Positions 8,565 through 24,340 of a stretch of DNA of 64,000 bases are shown here, in pieces. A program made the translations under genes and the position numbers. Source of the stretch: Diphasiastrum complanatum (lineage: Eukaryota; Streptophyta; Lycopodiopsida; Lycopodiales; Lycopodiaceae); contig CM055111.1 of the NCBI GenBank assembly GCA_029204225.1, positions 9,232,188-9,296,187 on the forward strand, written 5' to 3'. Position 1 is the first letter of the stretch. Each line of letters starts with the position of its first letter. A model generated the notes under the pieces. It did not search any database. It was not told the origin of the DNA and was given only the letters and a program-made list of their open reading frames with translations.

Positions 8565-8797
8565 TGAAGAGGTAGATGCACGAATTCATTGCAAATAGAT
8601 TCAAAGACTTCTGTAAGGAGAGGGGCATTCATCTTCGAACAATGTCATATTCCCCTCAGCAAAATGGGGTTGCAGAGCAGAAAAATCGCACCCTCATGGA
8701 TATGGCCAGGAGTATGTTGTTTGACAAAGGTCTTCCAAAGTTCTTGTGGGTAGAGGAAGTCAGTACAGCTGCCTACATCTCAATGCAGGTGTCTTGA
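8565..8797 (+). pseudogene. Copia integrase fragment
   Basis: The frame encodes EFIANRFKDFCKERGIH, then SYSPQQNGVAEQKNRTLMD and LPKFLWVEE. This is the C-terminal half of a copia integrase core (canonical SPQQNGVAERKNRT). It differs in sequence from Copia-1 and Copia-2. It ends at TGA near 8797 with no RT behind it, and the preceding 8.2-8.56 kb is too degraded to assign. It is an old orphan fragment lying to the right of the Copia-1 insertion. Confidence 0.8.
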
Positions 8798-9700: not shown

Positions 9701-10021
9701 ATGTCGACAGGTACTTACAAACTTTTATGTAATTTTACCATTTTCCCCCCTTGTCGTTGACATGTATTAATTACTGCTTAGTTTTCTAAATAGTTAAAAG
9801 AAATCACACTTCTATTTCATAGTTTGCTTGAATCTGCTTCTTCTCTTCATGAATTAGACAATGTTATATTCGTTCAAGCAACTTGACATTGGTAAGGTAT
9901 CTAAATGTTTTAGTGATAAAGATATTTGTGGATCTTGTTAAATTTGTGTGTACATATCAATTTTAACTGTATATTTTGACAAGTGTATTTTGTCAATATC
10001 ACTAACATTCTTGTTAAAAAA

Positions 10022-10586
10022 TTACAGATAAAATCTAATCGTTCATTAGCGAATATGTCTTCTACTAAGGAAATGTCTCGAAACAAGTATATTTATTAAA
10101 TGTATAGTAGATATTATGTACTTAACATTTGGATTTGCAGCATTGTGTGTTGAATATAACTTTTTTGTCTTTTTTTACGATTGTTTAAAGGACGACGCCT
10201 CCACAAGATAGCAAAAAGTTAAAGAAGATGCAATATTATTACAAAATGAAATCACGAAAAAGAGCACAAATGCTTGAGCAAAGACTTAGTGGAACATCAT
10301 TGTCATCAAGTTCTGGTGCCCAGCCTCGACCTAAACCGTAGGTACTATATAATTATTTGTTTAAAACTTAGGACTGTATTTATACACATATAAATTAGCT
10401 TGTAACATTATCTAATCGTTTTTGTGATTGTAAAATGAAAATAGTATCAGCAGAGGTACAATGAAAAGATATATTGCTAGTGCAAACAATGCAAAGGACT
10501 GAAAATTCGAGAAAGGCGAATAGTGGCGCAACATCTGTGGTAGTTTGGAAAGCACATTGAGGAGCCCGATGTGGATTTGGAGGTAC
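10022..10586 (+). pseudogene. Upstream exons of the CACTA gene (zinc-finger-like)
   Basis: Three exon-like pieces stand out from AT-rich introns. The first, at about 10,052, reads MSSTKEMSRNK. The second (about 10,191-10,340) reads PPQDSKKLKKMQYYYKMKSR followed by a basic, Ser-rich stretch. The third (about 10,446-10,583) reads YC-stop-CKQCKG, then RRIVAQHLW-stop-FGKH, and ends at a GT donor. The CxCxxC...HL...H spacing resembles the transposase-associated zinc-binding domain before many TNP2 transposases. Both stops are TAG where CAG would fit. The assignment rests on spacing and context. Confidence 0.45.
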
Positions 10587-10892
10587 ATTTTGACAATTTC
10601 GTACTGTTCTTATCATACACATATTTATAGTTTTTTTGAAAAAAATAAAACTAATGCTTGTGTAATGTTTCACTCTTGTAGAATAATACATTGATGTCAA
10701 TGTCTTATAACACGTCGATTGACGATCTTATCAACAAGATAAGAAATATCGATTTTGGATTATCTTTGACATTGGACGAAGATCTTGTTGATGATCATAA
10801 TGATGTCACTAGTCACTACACACCTCATGATGTGGAAGTTATGCATCTTTCCATTTCGCACGTCACTCCACCACACCTCACATAGATCTTTC

Positions 10893-11132
10893 CATGGAAT
10901 CTATTCATCCCACGATATCACCACACATAGATTCTATTCATCCCAAGACACCTCACATGGATTCTATTCATCTCACAACACCTCACGCAAATTCTACTAT
11001 GGATTCTATTCATTCCACGATATCACCACACATCGATTCTATCTATCTCATGACACCTCACATCGATTCTATCCATCCCACAACACTCACATTGATTTTA
11101 TCCATCCCACATCACCTCACATACCTTGTGTA
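10893..11132 (+). repeat. Minisatellite coding a DSIHPT-type repeat
   Basis: About seven imperfect units of 30-39 bp share GATTCTATTCATCCCAC and CACCTCACAT. In one frame they encode DSIHPT.(S/T)PHI repeats. The array sits between the zinc-finger-like exon and the SET-like segment and may have lain within the ancestral reading frame. Unit-length changes alter the frame along it. Confidence 0.75.
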
Positions 11133-11269
11133 GAATCTCCTCTTCTTCCTATTCCATCTAGATTTACTCCACAAAAAAAAAAAATATGACTTGGACGTAT
11201 TTTGACAAGATTTGAAAATGAACAACTAAATTTACGTAATGTTGACTTATTTAAAAATGTTTTTAAAAA

Positions 11270-11929
11270 AAATTCATTGATTGAGTCTCCCCTTCCTCCC
11301 TACCTAGAAGCATTGGTTAAGCCCTTTGATAGAAAGAAATATTCATGTTAGCCTAATAGAGTACCACTACCATTATGTGGAACATCATTTTCATATTGGG
11401 GTCATATGTACATGATCAAGCCAAGTGAGCACTTTCCTAATGCGGGATTGGGTTTATTTTCTTTGACTAGCATTGATGTCCCCTTGAATAGTGTTGTCAC
11501 ATTAATGCCTTATATAAAACCTCCATACAATTGAGGTGATTGGCATACTCTATGTCATCACAATGGAGAATGCAGGTTTATGGCTTGAATGCCAATGCTT
11601 GTTCTTTGAAAGAGCGACGTGTGCAAGAAGAGAATGTTTCGAAATCACATCGTATGTACATTGATGGGCGTCCAGAAAAATATGGCAATATTGCTGCATA
11701 TATAAATAGTTCCATTGGGCACCCTTCATTAACTAATTGTGATTTCGAGGAATGTACCAATGGAAAGAAAGAATACTTTTCTAGGAACTCAAAAAGTACA
11801 TACATAATGGTATGTGCAATAAGGCCCATTAAATGTGGTGGAGAGCTATTCATCAAATATAGCTTCAATCGCCCTCTTCCAAGATGTGTACAAAAGGCTT
11901 TGAGCCAAACTCAAGCATGTACCTTGTGA
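11270..11929 (+). pseudogene. SET-domain-like segment inside the CACTA gene
   Basis: SET domains are lysine methyltransferase folds. Two frames together give the order of SET motifs. Frame one (about 11,395-11,590) reads KPSEHFPNAGLGLFSLTSID and then VVTLMPYIKPPYN-stop, like the opening AG.GLFA...I strand. After a frameshift, the ORF from 11540 gives GNIAAYINSSIG and NCDFEE, aligning with the GN..R(F/Y)IN.S...NC cofactor-site motif. It then gives YIMVCAIRPIKCGGELFIKY, aligning with the A.R.I..GEEL...Y motif. The classic NHSC is changed to NSSI. A nonsense codon at about 11,532 and the frameshift make it inactive here. It shares the strand of the transposase and lies between its presumed N-terminal zinc finger and catalytic core. 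Confidence 0.65.
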
Positions 11930-12087
11930 ATATCAAAATACATTTTATCTATTTAGTGAGAGCAAGTTAAATTGAATGTGAATTAATTGTTTTTTTAATA
12001 TTTCATATGGCATGTCTTAATTTAAGATATGCTGTTTGATTTGCATGTCTTAATTTTAGTTTTAATTTTTATGAATGACAATCTTAT

Positions 12088-14880
12088 ATGTTAATTTGTT
12101 TCCCATGTTTGAGGGACTATGAACTGTCATCTAGCTCTAGTGACGATGACAACAGTCACTCCATATCCAAAACAAGATTGGCATACGATGGGCCGCACAT
12201 AAATCAACTATCACGTCATGAGCGTATGGGATTGAGAGCCATGATGAAAATAGATGAACAACAATGTGCCAAAGCAAATCAGTCTCGATCTTCTTCTTCT
12301 TCTTCTTCTTCAGAATCAAGATCAAGTGCTGAAAATGATTTTTGCATTCAAGATGAAATTGAAATCATGAACACCTTGATAAATAACATCTATGAGCATC
12401 ATGATATGGAAGAACGCACTGAACATGATAGCGAATCATTTATTAGTGTCGAGGAAAAAAAATTGAGAGAAGAATCAAACACACCATTATATCTAGGAGC
12501 AAAGACATCTCGTTTGGTTGCTTCGTTGCTTATATTGAACCTCCAAGCAAAATATAAATGGAGTGATACAAGTGTTACATCCTTATTTGGGTAAATAAGA
12601 TTGAGATTTTTTTTTAAGAATTTAATAGATGTGTTGTTCAAGTCAAATGTTTTAGTTGGCTAAATGATCTTTTATTTTATACTATGAAAATTCATTTCAT
12701 TATGTATAGGTTATTGTGGAGACTACTCCTAGAAGGAAACACTATGTTAGATACAAGAGGTGAGGCACGAAAAATGTTGAGTGCAATGGGAATGGACTAT
12801 ACATTGCATCATGCTTGTCCAAAAGATTGCATCTTATATCGTGGTGAGTATCGAGGGTTAAAAGCTTGTCCTATATGTGATACTCCTCGATATTGAGATG
12901 ACTTACAAGGGACCACTATCCCATGCAAGGTGTTATGACACTTTCTAATAATCCCACGATTGCAACGATTCTTTCATTGCAAGTCTCTTGTAGAACTTGT
13001 GAATTGGCATGCAAGTCATTGTTCTTCGGATGAGATCATGAGAGTACCCTCAGACTCTCCTGCATGGTAACACATTGACAAAGAATATCCATGTTTCGCA
13101 AGTGAAACAAGAAATATAAGATTTGGACTTGCAACAGACGAGGTTAACCCCTTTGAAAAAATGTCAAGCACGTGGTTTACTTGGCCAGTGGTGTTGGTCA
13201 ACTATAACATTCCACCTTGGCTAAGCATCAAAAAAGGACATCTCATACTAGCACTTCTAATTCTTGGAAAATATAAAGTAAAAAATATGGATATCTATTT
13301 TGCACCATTGATTGAGGAACTAGAACTTCTATGGAAGGGAGTCCAAGCATATGACATCTCAGGTCCACTTCAAGACAAAACATTTTTGTTGTGTGCGATG
13401 TTAATGTGGACTATGCATGACTATCCAGGATTGGGCAATTGTTCAGGTGACTATAAAATGAAATCATTTGTAATGTTTGTATATTTATTTTTTATGCATG
13501 CAATATTTATGCTTTAAAAGAATTCTATTTATAACACGAATTGGATTTGATTCTTTTAGGTTTTACAACTTCTAGATATCACGCGTGTCTCATTTGTGGA
13601 CCAAATATTGATGCTCGTCACTCACGTCATTTAAACAAAGTCGTGTATGAAAATCATCGCAAGTACTTGCATGATGAAAATCATCCATTTAGAAATGCTC
13701 ATAGAAGAGGCTTTGGAGGAAGATCAGAAACAAGAATGCCTCCAAAGATAATGTCCGTGGCAGATTGGCACAAACTTTGGATTGAATCCGAGACTAAGCC
13801 AATCAATGGTATGAAAAGACTATCCATCTTTCATTGTTTACCATATTGGAATAACCTTTTGATCAATCACTTGCTTGATCAATATGGAAACACTTGGTGG
13901 GCGACAAAGACAGTATTTCTGCCAGGCAAGATCTACAAGAATCAAAAACAAAAAAAGAGGATTGGCCAAAATTATGTACTGATGGAAATACCTATAATAT
14001 TCCAAGAGCCCCTTGGATTCTTACGAAAGAAGAGTCTAAGTACGTATGGTCAGTCATTTGCGAGATGAGAACACCAACGGGCTTTGCTCATTCACTACGA
14101 ACATTATTCACAGCTGAAGGAAAACTCCATGGTCTAAAATCTCACGATTGGTTGAAGATGGTCGAGTACATATTTCCAATGTGCATTCGTGGCTGTCTAA
14201 CTGATCAACTTCGTGATGCCATTTACAAATTAGCATCCATTGTCAGGTACTTAATTTTTTTTGTTTAGATCGATATCTTATGAAATTTAGTGTTTTTTTT
14301 CTAATACAAGTTTGATAAAATAATATGAACGTACTAAAATCTAGTTATACTACAAACATGATGTAGATGGATGTGTGGTAAGGAGATTCGTGAGATAGAC
14401 GTGCAAACAAAGCAAGAAGATATGGTGGAGGTTGTATGTATGCTTGAGAGGGATTTTCCAACTTCTATCCTAGACATACAGGTGTATCTTCTTGTGCACT
14501 TGGTCCAAGAAGTTGGTATTGTCGGTCCTGTGCACTCAATGTATAATACACTTAAATTTGATTTTAGTAGTTTCAATAAATGTAGTGTGATTCTTTCAAA
14601 TTATAAATAACAGAATGTTCTCATTGATGTGTTAAAATTTTCTGTAGGTGGATGTTTTTCTTGGAGCGATTCATGAGAGTGTTGAAAGATTTTGTGCGTC
14701 AGAAGGCAAGGCCAGAGAGAAGCATGTCAGAGGGATGGTTAGTGCAAGAATCTCTATTTTATGTTACCGAAGTTTTGTTTCAAATATATCCATCTGCTCC
14801 ACGACTATGGCATGATGAGGAAAGCAATGAGGTGAAAGGTGAAAAACCTCAAGGTATGGGTAGTCTTAAAAAAATGACAC
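12088..14880 (+). pseudogene. TNP2: CACTA transposase core (Transposase_21) and start of DUF4218
   Basis: An acidic Ser-rich N-terminus (12,115 onward) leads to NTPLYLGAKTSRLVASLLIL and KYKWSDTSVTSLFG. A 119-bp intron (12591-12709) interrupts it, then LLLEGNTMLDTRGEARKML and DYTLHHACPKDCILY follow. Next come LVELVNWHASHCSSDEIMR and GLATDEVNPFEKMSSTWFTW, typical of TNP2 transposases. A second intron (13447-13559) precedes HACLICGP and LPYWNNLLINHLLD. The conserved stretch after HLLD is deleted with a frameshift, then KDSISARQDLQESK resumes. ILTKEESKYVWSV, GLKSHDWLKMVEYIFP and IRGCL, then LVHLVQEVGIVGPVHSMY and EGWLVQESLFYVTEVLF, mark DUF4218. In-frame stops at 12894, about 12934 and about 13066 disable it. 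Confidence 0.88.
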
Positions 14881-15560
14881 TGTTAAAAATTCACAATTCT
14901 AGCTTGACTAGTTTTGGTCATATGACTTGTAAATAGTTAGATGGTCATGATGTGGCTTGTCACACGTGCCAAATAGCATAGGATTCCATTCATAAGGATG
15001 TTCTCAAGTAGACCTAAGTGTTAGAACCTTTGGAATGAGTCCAAATTATGCTTAGATACAAGGGAGAAAAAATAGGAGCTATTTTTGGTAATTTTTGCAT
15101 TGTTGAGGGATCTCCAAGATTCCAACCCTAACTTGGTAGGGATGAAAGATCCACCAAAATTAGCATTAGGGATAGGTTTAGGGATACTCATACCTGTCCA
15201 AAACCGTGATGGATCATGTATATATAGGTGATGATATCTCACCAAAATCAATCAAGCAATTTCATGTTTTTTCTCTCATAATGCTGCAATTGCTCTCTAT
15301 GTTCATAATTGTTTGAGTACTTGTGATTACTAATGATTATAGGATTGAATGTATCTGGTGTACAGTACTCAGACTGTGGGAGGCCGTACTTTCACACGTG
15401 TGAAGCCTTCTTCAAGGATTTGGGCCATTTAGTGAGGTTCAAGCATAGATTTTTGGTGGATTTTGATGGTTCAACTTGTGCTAATCTTATGAAATCATAA
15501 TCTATTGTTTCCCTCATCATTTCAAGTGTTTTAGGATCCTTATTTGCTTTAATTTTTACA
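14881..15560 (+). repeat. Copia-2 5' LTR
   Basis: 680 bp. A TATATATAG box lies at about 15219-15227 and a CACACGTGTG palindrome at 15393-15402. The LTR ends ...TTTTTACA, directly before the primer site. Confidence 0.95.
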
Positions 15561-15573
15561 TGGTATCAGAGCC
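15561..15573 (+). other. Copia-2 primer-binding site
   Basis: TGGTATCAGAGCC, complementary to initiator tRNA-Met, abuts the 5' LTR. Confidence 0.95.
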
Positions 15574-16371
15574 TAAAGGCTGAAATGAGCTAAATCTTTG
15601 GTTTTCATTCAATTTGATCACAATTTTTGATCTAAATCTTGTGTAGATTGGATCTTAGCATCTACTATTGATTCTAGAACTCAAAGTGAGTCAAATACAT
15701 TGGAGATTGGTGTTGTGTGACTTCATTTGCAGGTTTTTAGGTGTCTAAAACCAGAGGCAAAGTTGAATTCAATTCACATTACCAAGATAGCAAGTTTTGG
15801 TTGCTCCAAGCATTGATTTCTAAGCGAGTTTTGGAGGTGATTTCATAGAGGAGGCTTTCTAGCATTCAAGGAGAGGGAAGATCGGAGTTTTGGGGACTCT
15901 TCAAGGCTATTCTAAGGTGTAGTAGACACCTCCTAAAGTGATTTAGGTTCAGTCCAACCATTGCTTGACTTATGCACCAAATTAGATCAATTTTTCATCA
16001 ATTTTGATCATTTTTTGCTTGTGATTGGATAGTAGATTGTGTTGCATCCTCATTAAGTTCCATTTAAATCTTTTACAAGTGATTTTGGAAGTATATTAGG
16101 TTGCTGAAATTCACTCTTGATCAGATCATTTGGAAGCTTTAATGTTCTTTATAGAAAGAGGGGCAATTCTACTAGTATTGTCTACTTCAATCAAGCAAGT
16201 GCATTGTTTCTAGTATTCTATGATTTGATTTTGTTAGAAATCATTCTTAGATCTTTATAGGAAGTCTATTACTGATCTTTTCAAGTCCCTAAGAAGTGGG
16301 ATAAGATAGACCTTCAATCAAATCAATAGAAGTAACCTTCATTTGTGTCAAGTCCTTGATTAGGAGACTAG

Positions 16372-19300
16372 ATGGCATCTATAAATGCATATCTTTTGGA
16401 TACTAATGAAAGGCTCAACAAAACTAACTATTCCATATGGAAAGTTAGAATGGAATCTATCATGATCATGCAAGATCTGATGAAAATTGTAAATGGTAAG
16501 GAGGGTGAACCTATTCATCCTCAAGAAAAAGCCAAATACATCAAGAGGTGCAATGTTGCACTACATTGCATAAAAATGAATGTTGCAAATGAACTCTTAA
16601 GAGAGGTAGGAGATTGCACTTCAGCTCAAGATGCTTGGGAGACTTTGCAAAAGGTCTATGAATCCAAGAACCAAACTAGAATGTTAGCTTTGAAGAATCA
16701 AATCTATAGAAGCTATCAAAAGAAAGGAGAGAGTGCACATACTTTTGTCCTAAGAGTAAAGGAATTGAACAAAGAGCTAGCCTTTATAGGTACCCTATCA
16801 AGGATGAAGAGCTTGTTCAACTCATATTTAATGGACTAAGTTTTGAATTTGACAATTTGGTTCAGGGATATGCAATTATGGGTAAGCAACCCATACTTGA
16901 AAAACTCCAAGGCACACTCATGGCCGAGGAATCAAGAAGGATCCAAATGCAAGAGAGGATGGATAGGCTTTCCATCCAAGGTGGAGATGACCAAGCTCTC
17001 TTCACCAAAGGCAAAGGCAAGTCCAAAGGCAAAGGATCAACATTCAAGAAGTCTACAAAGCTTGAGGATCAAGAAGGACCCCCAAAGGCATCTCCATCAA
17101 CCACCAAAGTCAAGAAGGACAAATCAAAGGTGAAGTGCTACTATTGTAGCAAGATGGGGCATTATGCCTCAGAATGCTTCAAGAGGAAGCAAGATCAAAG
17201 CCAAGCCAACATGAGCAAAGAGGAGGAGGAGGAGAGTTCACATGAGGACTCTCTCATGATGTCCATATTTTCTTCAACAAGCTTCAAAGGAGAAGATCCT
17301 TGGTGGATTGACTCGGGTGCTAGTTCACACATGACTAGTAAAAGGGAGTTTTTCTCTTCTCTCTTATCTTATGATGGACCTATAAAGTCTATCTCTAGCT
17401 TGTAAGATTGAAGGAGTTGGTAGCATTCCCCTTTGCTTAGGATCTTCCAAAAAGATCAACATAGAAGGTGTTTTGTACATTCCTACAATAACAAAGAATC
17501 TACTAAGTGTTGGCCAAATGGTAGACAATGGTTTCAATGTTGACTTTGCTTCAAATGAATGTTTCATCAAGAATAAGAGTAAGATAGTGGCTAGGGGCAC
17601 TAAACTTGAAAAACTTTATAAGCTGGATGCATTTGTGGATACTAATGTTGTCATGTTGGCCGAGAAGAGCAAGATATCTACCTTTACTTTATGGCACAAA
17701 AGACTTGGACATGTCAACTTGGGTTCCATGGAGGCTATGATCAAGGAGGAGTATGCTTTAGGCCTACCAAGGTCTATTGGGAAGGAAGACAAGGTTTGTG
17801 AAGCTTGTGCCTTATCCAAGGCACATAAGAAGGTGTTTCCTAACTCCATCACAAAGTCATCTCATCCTCTTGAACTCATACACTCGGATGTGCACATTGC
17901 TAGCACCAAATCTAATGGAGGTTCATCCATGTTTTTAACCTTCATTGATGACTACTCAAGATTTTGTTGGGTGTTCTTACTTTCCTTCAAGTCTCAAGTA
18001 TTTGATACTTTTGTAAAGTTCAATTTGTTTGTGGAAAAGCATCATAATCATAGCATCAAGATTCTTAGAAGTGACAATGGTGGAGAATTCATCTCCAATG
18101 AGTTCAAGGCCTTTTGTGAGGAGGAAGGGATCAAGAAAGAGACTTCTTGTCCTTACACTCCTCAACAAAATGGAGTTGCTGAAAGAAGGAATAGAACATT
18201 ATGTGAATGTTCTAAGGCTTTAAGATTAGATGCTTGTTTGCCCAAATCCTTTTGGGGTGAGTCTCTTGTATGTGCAAACTACTTGATGAATAGGATGTCT
18301 TGCAAAGCAATTGAAGGCAAAACTCCTTATGAGATGTTGTATGGAAAGAAACCCAATCTTAATCACTTGAAAGTTTTTGGGTGTATATGTTATGTGCATG
18401 TGCCATTGGAAACAAGAACCAAGGAGGATCCATCTTCCACAAGAGCGATCATGCTTGGATATGCAAGCTCAAGCAAGGGCTACAAAGTCTATCTCCCATC
18501 CTTGAACAAATTTGTTGTTTCAAGGGATGTCATCTTTGATGAACATCATATGCATATGCTTGAAGAAGGATCAAGTGCTCCAACAATCAAGAAGAAGATG
18601 GCCGAGGAGCAAGATCTTGGTTTTGAGGAGGAGCTCATGGAGGAGCAAGCACCAAACCCACCTATCACACCAAGGAGATCTTCAAGGGCAAAAGTGGAGC
18701 CATCAAGGCTCACATATCAAGGCAAAGGACAGCAAGTTGAGGGTATCTCATCCACTTCTTATGCTTTATCTAGTTTTGAAGAACCGTATAGTGTTGAAGA
18801 TGCATTGAACTCCAAAGAATGGTATAAAGCTATGTTGGATGAGTATGATGCCTTGATTGAGAATGAAACTTGGTTGCTTGTTGAGAGACCTCAAAGGAAT
18901 GTAATAGGATGCAAGTGGGTCTTCAAGCTTAAGTTGAATGCAAATGGGAGTGTTAACAAACATAAAGCAAGATTAGTTGCAAAAGGTTATGCTCAAGAGA
19001 GAGGGATAGACTATGAGGAAACTTTTTGCACCCGTGGCCAAGATGGTCACAATAAGACTAATCATTGCACTTGCATCACATTTTGGATGGATTCTATGTC
19101 AAATGGATGTCTCCAATGCTTTCTTGAATGGTTTTTTGGAAGAGGATATCTATATGGAGCAGCCATAACGGTTCATCAAGCATGGAATGGAGAACAAAGT
19201 ATGCCATCTCCAAAGAAGCATCTATGGCTTGAAGCAAGCCTCGAGATCTTGGAATTCAAGACTACATTGCTATCTTATTTCACTTTCTTTTGTTCAAAGT

Positions 19301-20311
19301 GAATATGATCCCACTCTTTACATTAAGTTTGATGATGTTGGTATTGTACTTTTACTCATTTATGTAGATGACATCATCATTAGTGGAAATAGTGTTGATG
19401 GTATTGAAAAAATCAAGATAGATCTATCCTTAGAGTTCAAGATGGTAGATCTAGGGTGTCTTCACTTCATCTTAGGCATAGAAGTACTTAGAGGGTCTGA
19501 TTTTATCTTTATAAGTCAAGTAAACTATGCTCAAAGTCTTTTGAAGAAGTTTAAGATGGAAGTATGCAAAAGTGTTGACACACCAATGGAGCAAGATGTA
19601 AAAGTGCCAAATGAAGATGATGAAAGATCCTTCATGGATATCACTTTGTTTAGGCAACTTATAGGTTCCTTAATGTGGATCACTATAACTAGACCAGATC
19701 TTAGCTTTTGTGTATGTAGGTTGAGCCAATCCATGCAAAAGCCATTGAATATCCATTGGAAAAAGGCTAAGAGGATTCTAAGATACATCTCAGGTACATT
19801 GGATTTTGGGATTCTATATAGAGGAGATGTGATTAACCTTCATGCATTTAGTGATTCAGATTTTGCAGGGGACAAAAGGGATAGGAAATCAACTTTCATA
19901 GGAGAAGGTGTGGTTTCATGGCTTTCAAAAAAGCAAGAAACTATATCTCTATCTTCAACCGAGGCCGAGTACAAAGCTTTGACAACCACTACAAAGGAGG
20001 TACTTTGGATCAAGAGATTATTGGTGGAACTAAAGATCATGGATTCAGAGGAGGAACCAATCATCTACAATGACAATATATCAGCCCAACACCTTGCATC
20101 TAACCCAATCTTCCATGCAAGATCTAAGCACATTGAGATATGCCATCACTTTGTGAGAGACATGGTGCAAGCCAAGGAGATTGCTTTGGAGCATGTTCCA
20201 AGCAATGAATGTGTAGCTGATCTACTTACTAAACCACTTCAAAAGACACCTTTTATGAAGTTCAGATCATCACTTGGAGTGATAAGTAAAGCAATGATTG
20301 AACCAAGCTAG
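16372..20311 (+). pseudogene. gag-pol: Copia-2 gag-pol with frameshifts
   Basis: Gag starts at ATG 16372 (MASINAYLLDTNERLNKTNY). One base is missing near 16,790 and gag resumes in another frame through the zinc knuckle CYYCSKMGHYASEC. The protease motif is DPWWIDSGASSHMT. A second shift near 17,400 leads to the pre-integrase and integrase (WHKRLGHVNLGSM, HSDVH, YTPQQNGVAERRNRT). RT begins in frame (ENETWLLVERP, GCKWVFKLK), then a five-T run near 19,025 shifts the frame. QMDVSNAFLNGFLEEDIYME follows, then a TAA at about 19168, IYGLKQASRSWN and the catalytic YVDD at 19361-19372. RNase H (FSDSDFAGDKRDRKS, LSSTEAEYKAL, VADLLTKPL) lacks about five residues after RDRKST. Each lesion is small, so the copy was probably coding-competent when it inserted. 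Confidence 0.92.
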
Positions 20312-20315
20312 ATAG

Positions 20316-20325
20316 TGAGGAGGAG
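20316..20325 (+). other. Copia-2 polypurine tract
   Basis: TGAGGAGGAG directly precedes the 3' LTR. It is the plus-strand primer site. Confidence 0.85.
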
Positions 20326-21005
20326 TGTTAAAAATTCACAATTCTAGCTTGACTAGTTTTGGTCATATGACTTGTAAATAGTTAGATGGTCATGATGTGG
20401 CTTGTCACACGTGCCAAATAGCATAGGATTCCATTCATAAGGATGTTCTCAAGTAGACTAAGTGTTAGAACCTTTGGAATGAGTCCAAATTATGCTTAGA
20501 TACAAGGGAGAAAAAATAGGAGCTATTTTTGGTAATTTTTGCATTGTTGAGGGATCTCCAAGATTCCAACCCTAACTTGGTAGGGATGAAAGATCCACCA
20601 AAATTAGCATTAGGGATAGGTTTAGGGCTACTCATACCTGCCCAAAACCGTGATGGATCATGTATATATCGGTGATGATATCTCACCAAAATCAATCAAG
20701 CAATTTCATGTTTTTCTCTCATAATGGTGCAATTGCTCTCTATGTTCATAATTGTTTGAGTACTTGTGATTACTAATGATTACAGGATTGAATGTAGGTC
20801 TGGTGTACAGTACTCAGACTGTGGGAGGCCGTACTTTCACACGTGTGAAGCCTTCTTCAAGGATTTGGGCCATTTAGTGAGGTTCAAGCATAGATTTTTG
20901 ATGGATTTTGATGGTTCAACTTGTGCTAATCTTATGAAATCATAATCTATTGTTTCCCTCATAATTTCAAGTGTTTTAGGATCCTTATTTGCTATAATTT
21001 TTACA
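20326..21005 (+). repeat. Copia-2 3' LTR
   Basis: 680 bp, with a CACACGTGTG palindrome at 20838-20847. It is followed by the GACAC target duplicate, after which the CACTA gene resumes. Confidence 0.95.
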
Positions 21006-22245
21006 GACACCTAGTTTGAGAGAAAAAATTTCAACCTTCATGCTATATAATTCAGGAGTAATGGATAAATGGTTGGAATTATATGAAGAAGAAAAAAAAA
21101 AGGGTATTGACTTCATGCTATATAATTTTTACAGACACCGACGCAATAGGCGTAGAGGTCAAGCTACACCTTCACATGATCTTGAGCCATTGCCCAACCA
21201 ATGCACTATAGACTGGATGGTTGATACACTCCGACAAGCAAGATCAAAGGGACAATTCACATCTGACACAGAATGGGAATTTGCAAGAGGATGTGATTGG
21301 AAGGTTTGTCTATAACTCTATTTTTTTAAGTGAACAATTTTAATTTGTATGATGATTGATTATTGTTTTAATTATAATCAACATGTGACAATATCGAAAG
21401 TATAGTGCAATGTGGGCATATGGTCGTCATCATCGCATTGAATCAATTGATATGAAATGACGAACTTATGATTGTTGTGTCACGGCATCCTTCCGTCAAG
21501 AAAGTCGGAGTAGTGCTCGAGATCAAAGTCCAATTTCTGGAGAGCTTGAGTATGTAGGAACCATACAAGCCATATATGAGGTGTGTTTTGGTGAAATGGG
21601 TAAGAATTTGTTGTTTGACGTGAAATGGTTCAAAATCAACTATAGAGGATCAAATGCAACTGTAAAAAAAGATCGTAGTAGATTTTTTGCTATCGGTTCA
21701 ACCAAGACATTAAGCGTGGACTTTTCAGACACATTGGTGTTGCCTCGTCATTGTGTACAGGTGTGCATGAATTTTACATTTTTTTCTTTTTGTCAATTGT
21801 GATCAATGTTATATTAATCATCTACACTACTTTTTAATTACATCTATTTATTGTGAATTAAAATGTAAGCATAACAAATATCTAATCCTAACATTGCTAA
21901 ATGTGCAGGTATTTTTTCAACCAGATCGACTAAACAATTAAGCCACGCTCAAGACATGTATTCGAAAATGCATATGTTGAGAATGAAATGGAAGATCTAA
22001 ATTTGGACAACACAAGTATATCTAATGAAGATGTACATATACCTTCGAGTTTTATAAATATTGAAAACCCGAGAATTGATTCTCATGATTTCAACAACTC
22101 AGATGATGAAGAGGACAACAATGATTCTTTGCATGAGGACAATATTGAGAGAGGTTTTGATTTCGATAGTGATGATGAAAATCATCTTAGCGGAGATGAG
22201 TTGCAAGATGTATTGGCTGATGAATTTGAATCTTGCGATGATTAA
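21006..22245 (+). pseudogene. TNP2: CACTA transposase 3' part: DUF4216 and acidic tail
   Basis: This is the continuation of the transposase gene right of Copia-2. A basic stretch (YRHRRNRRRGQATPSHD) and DTEWEFARGCDWK end at a GT donor near 21,303. The next exon (about 21,405-21,760) reads SFRQESRSSARDQSPISGEL, EYVGTIQAIYEVCFGEMGKN, LLFDVKWFKINYRG and KKDRSRFFAIGSTKTLSVDF, then VLPRHCVQ. This matches the DUF4216 pattern of TNP2 proteins. A stop interrupts it near 21,460. After another intron come VFFQPDRL and, from 21,988, an acidic tail rich in Asp, Glu, Asn and Ser (DDEEDNNDSLHEDNIE) to the stop at 22245. Presence on both sides of Copia-2 in the same order shows the CACTA gene was there first. 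Confidence 0.78.
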
Positions 22246-22965
22246 TAAAGTTTGTACATGTCACAAATAATTTTGTCATAAAATGATCCATTGTGGTCAA
22301 TATATATTGTTTTCAAATTAAAATTATTATATTTTTCTATGATGTTGCATTTCGAAAGTTTCATTTCAAACGCATCTGGCAATCACTTAAAATTAAAAAA
22401 ATTTATCAATATTAGTAGATGTGTGAACTAATTAAAAGATATATGTGTTGATTATTTATATATTATGATTTAAAAACATCTTCTTTGAGATAATAATACA
22501 CTTTGCCACAATATTGTTCGACTATTCATTGATCTTTGCAAACACGCAAAAGTGTATAACATTGCAATTTTTTTATCAACAAATTAGCTTAACAAGCTAC
22601 CACACGGCTCTCAAATGTAAGGTACTTAGCATCCTTTCACATGCATATTAAGCTCACGCTTATATTTTTACCCATCAATACCATATTGAAAAAATTGTCA
22701 AATTTTGATTAAAATTTTTTCTCAATATAGAAACACATCATAATGTCTATAAATACATAAGATAGCATGTACTGATAGTAATTTTAATTCGTTAGAGCAT
22801 AATAATTTGAGATAATGACATTTAATTTTTAGTCCACATTTTATTATAAGTATACACCTATTCAAAATATTTAAAAAAATCTTATTTGCTTTTAAATTAA
22901 TCATAAAGTTGTTTTTTATTAACTTATTATTCATAATAGATAAAAAAAAACTACAACAAGCTAAT
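22246..22965 (+). other. AT-rich DNA after the CACTA gene, no gene
   Basis: Strongly AT-rich, without a supported coding region. It probably holds the 3' UTR and subterminal DNA of the CACTA element. I looked for a TAGTG-type terminus and cannot place one with confidence. Confidence 0.35.
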
Positions 22966-22968
22966 TTT

Positions 22969-23460
22969 GCCATGCGTGGCACTGCCACGCGTGGCAAATT
23001 TTCAAAACAAAATTTTTCTAAGTATTGTGTTTTAATATTGCCACACGTGGCAAATTTTTTGACAAATTTTGTCACGCGTGGCAATAAAAAAAGCCATTGC
23101 TCTGGAATTTTCTTTGGAGATTTGCCACACATGGCACTGCCACGTGTGGCAAATCAAAAAAATTTATGTCACATGAAAATTGGTTAAATAACAATCGTAC
23201 GTGGCACTTCCACGCGTGGATGTGCCACGCCGACATATTTTGGCACTCAAATTTTAAGTTTTAGTTTAAAAAAAATTTGCGTGGCAGTGCCACGCAAAAT
23301 TAAAATTTTTTTGTCTGACCTCTCCTCCAGTCTGGATTTCACTGGCATGTTCCTTGGAAAAGTTTTAGGGTGGATATGCCACGCATGGCAGTGCCACGCA
23401 TAAGAAAAATGTCAAAATTTCTGGCTAAGTATCGGGTTCACGTGGCAGCGTCGCGTGGCA
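22969..23460. repeat. Array of GCCACGCGTGGC palindromes
   Basis: About a dozen copies of the 12-bp palindrome GCCACGCGTGGC, or one- to two-base variants, occur in roughly 490 bp of AT-rich linker. Examples: 22969-22980, 22984-22995, 23040-23051, 23071-23082, 23124-23135, 23139-23150, 23209-23220 and 23377-23390. A related 17-bp inverted repeat, GCGTGGCAGTGCCACGC, lies at 23279-23295. Several form pairs separated by ACT or AGT. The position 3' of a CACTA transposase gene suggests subterminal transposase-binding repeats, which is an inference. Confidence 0.85.
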
Positions 23461-23879
23461 AAACACACATATATGTAGTTGTGTGTATTGTGATCTGATC
23501 GTTGTTATTACAACATTAATATACAGATTCATTGCATTCCGTTGACTGTCAATTAACTCTCACTCTTCTTCCGCAAGTAACATAAACAAAAAAAGGTATG
23601 GCTGTCTTTGATGCCCAATCGTTCTTACATTTCTTTATATCAGAATATCAGTATCAGAACAGTTGTCTCAGACGCCTAATTGTTTTTCCCGCAATATCTC
23701 TTTATGGTAGTCTAAGACTCCTACACTGATACTCTTAATCAACACAATCAGAACATCTTTATCATAACTCCGTTCTCCAAGTAATCCAGATCTTTATCAT
23801 CAGTTTCATTGTTTCCTTTGTTGGGATGACGACCTTCATTTCTGCTGAGGCCCAGACCTTATTGCTTTCAACAGGTTAA

Positions 23880-24340
23880 TCAGGTAATCAATTAGGTCTA
23901 AGCTAGATAGAATAAATCTAGAATAGATCGATAGCACAAAAATAGATGATCCAGACCCTACTAGCTAGACTAACCTAAATTAGGTAGTTTAGATCTAAGC
24001 AGCCAGACAAGTAGATCTTAGAATAGTTAGACCGATAAGATTAGCTAGGATAGACTTAGGGCTAGATTAATTCTAGAATAGTCGACCCATTCCACCCAAT
24101 AGCGACCTGTAGCTCGACTTATCTACGTTAGATTAACTTTTTAAAAATAGACCAACAAATAGATTAGATTGGATAGACTTAGATCCGAAGGCCGAACTCC
24201 AGCAGTAGTGTATTTAGAATAACGCAGCCCAATCAATTAGGTTAGATTCGAGGCCCCGTAGTATAGCCTAGCCCATAGGATAGCTAAAGTAGTTTAATGA
24301 AGGTTTAGGCTAGAATAGATTAGTCCTAAGCTAGATGAAA
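23880..24340. repeat. CTAG/TAGA-rich low-complexity block
   Basis: Dense variants of CTAGATAGA, AGATTAG, TAGACC and CTAGAATAG recur without a fixed period over about 460 bp. There is no coding potential. It may be an old decayed satellite. Confidence 0.5.

Follow-up and report, generated by a model that had tools for sequence, protein, structure and literature searches.

A SET-domain exon upstream of the transposase exons in a CACTA/EnSpm-type transposon family of Diphasiastrum complanatum

The stretch of DNA analysed here, referred to as the window, comprises 64,000 nucleotides of Diphasiastrum complanatum contig CM055111.1 (positions 9,232,188 to 9,296,187 of the forward strand; assembly GCA_029204225.1). 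It contains a decayed, dead copy of a CACTA/EnSpm-type DNA transposon with the following features, where positions are counted from the first letter of the window and a slash marks a splice junction:

9762..23483, + strand: what is left of the transposon copy after loss of its 5′ part, a nested Copia element included (start from homology to other copies; 3′ end common to copies)
10448..10582, + strand: zinc-finger (Transpos_assoc-like) exon, start approximate (read directly; two in-frame TAG codons; ends GAG/GTACAT, phase 0)
10682..11929 (about), + strand: SET exon, broken in the window (comprises an acidic stretch, tandem repeats with a unit of about 105 nt and the SET domain, and closes with its own stop codon)
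11385..11872, + strand: SET domain, approximate (Pfam SET plus an N-terminal half placed by alignment to copies; TGA and frameshift inside)
12114..12591, + strand: first exon of the TNP2 side, following the SET exon (present downstream of SET in all 30 loci; acceptor from alignment)
12714..14245, + strand: TNP2 core exons (Transposase_21) with introns (PF02992, E 1e-43 at 13071-13517 and 9.5e-10 at 13535-14068)
14362..14610 and 14646..14850, + strand: DUF4218 region of the TNP2 gene in two pieces (PF13960, E 6.5e-10 and 7.3e-9)
14881..21005, + strand: Copia LTR retrotransposon in the TNP2 gene (LTR pieces 98-100% alike)
21006..22245, + strand: C-terminal TNP2 exons past the Copia insert (partly homologous to the C10 and C3 copies)
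22974..23460, + strand: subterminal region on the right side (nine exact TGCCACGC or GCGTGGCA sites by pattern count)
23463..23483, + strand: 3′ terminus ...ACACATATATGTAGTTGTG (inverted: CACAACTACATATATGTGT), the same end with different flanks in other copies

The window copy is without its 5′ part, because homology to the rest of the family begins only at position 9762. A degenerate Copia-integrase-like stretch at 8640-8787 (PQQNGVAEQKNRTL) ends abruptly, by eye, at about 8787, just before the foreign sequence that replaces the 5′ part. The transposase of the element is TNP2 (PF02992, E 1e-43), and Pfam scans of window pieces returned no other transposase family, such as Harbinger or MuDR; nor was a second copy of the element found within the window. 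The Copia insert is flanked on both sides by GACAC (14876-14880 and 21006-21010, by eye), and the TNP2 exons beyond it (21006-22245) matched no Pfam family at the cut-off.

A preliminary description of this DNA proposed that motifs at 11270-11929 form a SET methyltransferase segment lying upstream of a TNP2 core on the same strand. The Pfam SET and Transposase_21 profile scans that it suggested both gave significant matches in the window. The SET match (PF00856, window 11540-11929, + strand; E 4.4e-8, 33.9 bits against a curated cut-off of 22.4) identifies a true SET segment. It spans profile positions 46-104 of 105, at about 11645-11860 in the DNA, and the TNP2 match at 13071-13517 follows on the same strand. 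The motif AGLGLF (11442-11459) lies in one frame, with GNIAAYINSS..TNC and AIRPIKCGGELF in another; the first half alone, in its other frame, gave no Pfam match, and neither Rfam nor NCBIfam gave a match. A chance motif match as the source of the SET signal is ruled out by the Pfam score together with the family of copies described below. The copy is indeed broken by a nonsense codon and a frameshift, as had been stated, and both are defects of the window copy: other copies read WG where the window has TGA (11532-11534), and they are open across the frameshift site near 11560. Within the SET exon, a tandem repeat of about 105 nt (83% alike; window 10869-11078) encodes HIDSIHPTTP-type repeats in a frame common to other copies. 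The zinc-finger-like exon said to lie further upstream is also present. Homologous exons of two sister lineages match Transpos_assoc (PF13963) at E-values of 8e-5 and 4.9e-5, both below the curated cut-off, and the exon homologous to that of the window is open in copy A12.

The genome searched for relatives was the window's own (1.74 Gb, 5176 contigs). A search with the window SET piece gave at least 150 matches (150 scored of 2019 candidates), with E-values of 8.9e-58 or better and 73-99% identity. The first 30 of these were extracted with 1.5-kb flanks; they include the window, its C393 near-copy and four further near-identical pairs, leaving 25 loci if each pair is counted once. In every one of the 30, SET is followed on its own strand by the first TNP2 exon, and 26 also contain part of the TNP2 core. 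No internal stop is listed in 23 of the 30 SET match rows, and the G-L-F motif and the C-terminal SET half share one open frame in 12 of the 30 loci (up to 389 and 392 amino acids). Among the 150 matches scored, the longest row without a stop has 424 amino acids, a row of 434 amino acids holding one TAG. An open sister copy matches Pfam SET at 5.4e-9, which exceeds the curated cut-off, as do the SET matches of the C10 and C17 elements described below. Thus, the claim that the SET segment belonged to the ancestral element is borne out by the 30 loci with TNP2 next in order and by the existence of sister copies with an unbroken SET exon. A tblastn search of viral contigs for TNP2 or SET found no relatives.

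The right end of the element is sharply defined. When window 22100-23900 was used for a DNA search, 31 of 38 long matches, counted without the window and its C393 near-copy, ended at query positions 1372-1392 of 1801, and the other seven ended earlier. The exact end ...ATATATGTAGTTGTG was found in nine of ten right flanks compared and a one-base variant in the tenth, with the sequences diverging beyond it. The 18-base terminus occurs at 205 genome sites with at most one mismatch, against 9 for the control pattern read backwards. In other copies the right end reads ...GTG, which inverted gives CACAA and not CACTA. Upstream searches turned up no inverted partner for the 3′ terminus, so that no left end or target-site duplication was identified, and a search for inverted termini within the window alone found none that was convincing. 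A sharp left limit that had been considered as the left terminus was caused artificially by a short tandem repeat together with a GA microsatellite: shared sequence continues past it in 10 of 12 left stretches. Upstream of SET, more than 7 kb is common to two other copies. TNP2 assigns the element to the CACTA/EnSpm type. The terminus reads CACAA and is the only one found, so the location of SET and TNP2 between one pair of termini is presumptive. A reverse-strand coding stretch beginning MSTSGSGAS is common to loci L056 and L060 (C4) and L059 and L061 (C11), 3-7 kb upstream of SET. It is located upstream of the zinc-finger exon, matched no Pfam family, and could be a second, TNPA-like gene of the element.

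Evidence for the age of the association comes from lineages that are divergent from the window family. An element at C10:40828001-40838000 has the same order and similar spacing, with a SET segment 54% and a TNP2 core 59% identical to the window family (Pfam SET, E 4.9e-5); it has a copy on C3084 that is 99.9% alike apart from a 1.6-kb difference. A second element, at C17:35278700-35287060, carries in order a Transpos_assoc-like exon (4.9e-5, below cut-off), SET (4.1e-9), Transposase_21 (9.3e-31) and DUF4218 (3.7e-35). Its SET segment matches profile positions 1-105 and is 35% identical to that of the window family over 160 amino acids. The order of zinc finger, SET and TNP2 is thus repeated in two lineages whose SET identity to the window family has fallen to 54% and 35%. 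A single recent capture of SET at the window locus is ruled out by the 30 loci and these two lineages. Its occurrence at the same place in three lineages also speaks against SET as a nested insertion.

One relative is without SET. The element at C3:40834000-40843000 combines a zinc-finger exon (8e-5, below cut-off) with TNP2, whose core is 66% identical, but the 3.4 kb preceding TNP2 gave no SET match. Six further loci, L001-L006, also gave no SET match, but within short flanks, so absence is not proven there. In a FastTree analysis of TNP2 pieces, support is 1.0 for the group of C10, C3 and the window family and again 1.0 for its junction with C17, with L001-L006 falling outside. The placement of C3 within the group is weak: it is nearest the window family at 0.675, and nearest C10 at 0.696 in a smaller tree. 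Loss of SET in C3 is the likelier event, because C3 groups among SET-bearing lineages and no insertion signature was seen. The preliminary description had named, as evidence against its reading, sister elements in which SET is absent and flanked by an insertion signature; a sister without SET does exist in C3, but the signature was not seen there. A single gain of SET before the C17 split, followed by loss in C3, fits these observations best.

The SET segment is about as constrained as the TNP2 core between the window family and C10. Mean pN and pS are 0.305 and 0.794 for SET (114 codons), and 0.281 and 0.886 for the core; only the contrast between SET and core counts here, because synonymous sites are saturated. 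Within the window family, dN/dS is 0.62 for SET (435 pairs, 30 sequences) and 0.65 for the core (120 pairs from 16 sequences with more than 80 codons), near-identical copies being included in both values, and this fits recent decay of many copies. Given the family copies with TNP2, the two divergent lineages in the same order, and the core-like constraint on SET, the SET segment is almost certainly an old inherited part of a CACTA/EnSpm lineage.

The preliminary description placed the SET segment inside the transposase gene, and an in-frame SET-TNP2 fusion was first inferred from the window copy. It was dropped as the main reading after 12 copies had been aligned. An in-frame stop closes the SET exon in all three lineages: the SET frame ends ..TTG TGA in 29 of 30 loci (the exception is L027), ..TTG TAA in C10 and ..TTA TAA in C17, the residue not being exactly the same (one copy read for each of the C10 and C17 lineages). 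Moreover, the acceptor of the next exon reads GAAG/GAC in 11 of 12 aligned copies and is out of phase with the TT/GTGAAT donor at the end of the SET exon. Only the window copy, which reads GAGG, would permit this donor to be joined in frame, through an AG/G acceptor. Together, the stop in three lineages and the acceptor phase weigh against SET as a part fused within the transposase. According to the fusion model, SET would be a domain of one large transposase, its exon spliced in frame to TNP2, acting in cis during transposition. An inner phase-0 GT in the SET exon (TGT/GTACAA in the window, AAT/GTAATG in C10) could also give a fusion, but these inner sites lie at different places in the two elements, and C17 is without a good donor before its stop. 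The fusion model is hence rather unlikely.

The likeliest arrangement is instead that alternative splicing yields a zinc finger-SET protein (ZnF-SET) and a zinc finger-TNP2 protein (ZnF-TNP2), with the chance that there are two such separate products put at about even. The window, A12 and C3 have a phase-0 donor at the end of the zinc-finger exon. A phase-0 acceptor opens the SET exon in the window, A12 and C4; it reads AG/AAT and is kept in A12 and C4, and its AG is lost in C11. For the TNP2 exon, the window family, C3 and C17 show a phase-0 acceptor; the splice phases of C10 and C17 are readable in part only. Transcripts without the SET exon would thus stay in the TNP2 frame, and those with it would encode ZnF-SET, ending at SET's own stop.

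The SET motif is usually NHSC. In the window family its H is missing and the motif reads N-S-S. G-x-G-x-F is conserved, as are the asparagine of YIN and the tyrosine in the ELFIKY segment; C10 has DELFISYDY, a more usual ending. A search by sequence for a solved structure related to the SET piece found none, and a fold prediction for the window SET piece was too poor to use (mean pLDDT 50.6). Methyl transfer by the SET protein is plausible, and the intact protein would probably, though by no means certainly, be an active methyltransferase. A competing model holds that the SET protein has been retained not as an active methyltransferase but as a binding or dimer module for the transposase or DNA. 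The replacement of the NHSC-type motif by N-S-S, the modest Pfam SET scores and the lack of a solved relative by sequence are consistent with such a role, but the retention of G-x-G-x-F, of the asparagine of YIN and of the tyrosine in the E-L-F-x-x-Y segment, together with the DELFISYDY ending of C10, makes this model improbable. It is more doubtful still that the SET exon is a captured piece of a host gene hitchhiking without function: CACTA elements often capture host gene fragments, according to the available text of PMC8978399, many SET copies in the genome are broken, and C3 does without SET, but three lineages, with identity as low as 35%, preserve place and order, and the constraint on SET relative to C10 resembles that on the transposase core.

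The explanation favored here is that a CACTA/EnSpm lineage long ago gained a SET exon between its Transpos_assoc-like zinc-finger exon and its TNP2 exons, and kept it. Splicing of the zinc-finger exon to the SET exon would produce ZnF-SET, terminated by SET's own stop, and splicing that bypasses the SET exon and reaches the TNP2 exons would produce ZnF-TNP2. ZnF-SET would methylate a lysine of a histone or another protein, the zinc finger would aim it at element DNA, and methylation would lower silencing or help transposition. Taken as a whole, with an old gain, retention, expression as ZnF-SET and a role in methylation, this explanation has roughly even chances. A role of SET against silencing in particular is a tentative suggestion. 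Equally speculative is the broader picture of an old plant CACTA lineage with its own chromatin writer, in which one zinc finger would be joined by alternative splicing to the transposase in one product and to a SET lysine methyltransferase in the other, the latter methylating proteins at the element's own ends, so that the element sets its own silencing state. The retention of SET beside the transposase hints that these elements carry with them a means of altering chromatin or other proteins. Should the SET protein be active and directed to the element, these transposons would bring their own protein methyltransferase, and escape from, or use of, host silencing would become directly testable.

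The transposase of SETMAR/Metnase is a mariner transposase. SETMAR/Metnase resembles the arrangement described here in having SET beside a transposase, but as far as the available text of PMC4593633 describes, it is a chimeric host protein with another transposase, whereas the present case is a multi-copy mobile family. Closer parallels are the HarbingerS and MuDR families of the oomycete Phytophthora, which have taken up SET genes (Kojima and Jurka 2014, cited in the accessible part of PMC12730594). These are likewise DNA transposon lineages with an incorporated SET histone methyltransferase gene, but of other transposase superfamilies and in an oomycete host, in contrast to TNP2 in a plant. 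The same part of PMC12730594 describes plant Vandal MuDR elements that encode a regulator of their own silencing, and fungal EnSpm, among other DNA transposons, that carry a TET/JBP dioxygenase. The latter are CACTA-type elements with an epigenetic-type enzyme, but the enzyme is a DNA demodification enzyme in fungi and not a protein methyltransferase.

Angiosperm CACTA/EnSpm elements carry Transpos_assoc (TAD), Transposase_21, DUF4218 and DUF4216, with Transposase_24 or Peptidase_C48 added at times (PMC8978399, available text). They have the same transposase and the same zinc-finger-like N-terminal region as the family described here, but "SET" as a whole word is absent from the available text of that source, whereas here a SET exon lies between the N-terminal exon and TNP2. 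Maize Spm produces four transcripts by alternative splicing (PMC1636069, available text). Spm/En (PMC1636069, PMC2613891) thus makes several proteins per CACTA element by the mechanism proposed here, but the Spm proteins that the accessible text names do not include SET, and splicing in the window family is only predicted. A literature search, not exhaustive in coverage, found no report of SET in a CACTA/EnSpm element. What appears to be new is the presence of a putative chromatin-type enzyme, of a kind known on DNA transposons, in a superfamily and host group with no such report in the literature searched.

Several further observations concern the distribution of copies. The near-identical copy of the window element at C393:12346-36890 has about 22.7 kb from SET to the 3′ block, against about 10.6 kb in the window, and carries about 12 kb more between them. 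Two stretches on different contigs, C12:21632841-21647000 and C16:5139181-5153340, were considered as a transposition pair and rejected, since the whole 14.2 kb compared, element and flanks included, is 99.84% identical; this identity reflects either a recent segmental duplication or an assembly artefact. In a genome search with PF00856 that gave 146 matches, the best eight are host-gene-like open frames of 719-975 amino acids without a stop, and many lower rows are copies of the SET transposon. SET gene counts obtained by domain search can therefore be inflated by transposon copies, since many of the 146 matches lie at loci of this family. Finally, about 1.6 Mb of C1 (48585244-50203309) holds at least 22 TNP2 and at least seven SET matches of a more divergent subfamily, a crowding that looks like local amplification.
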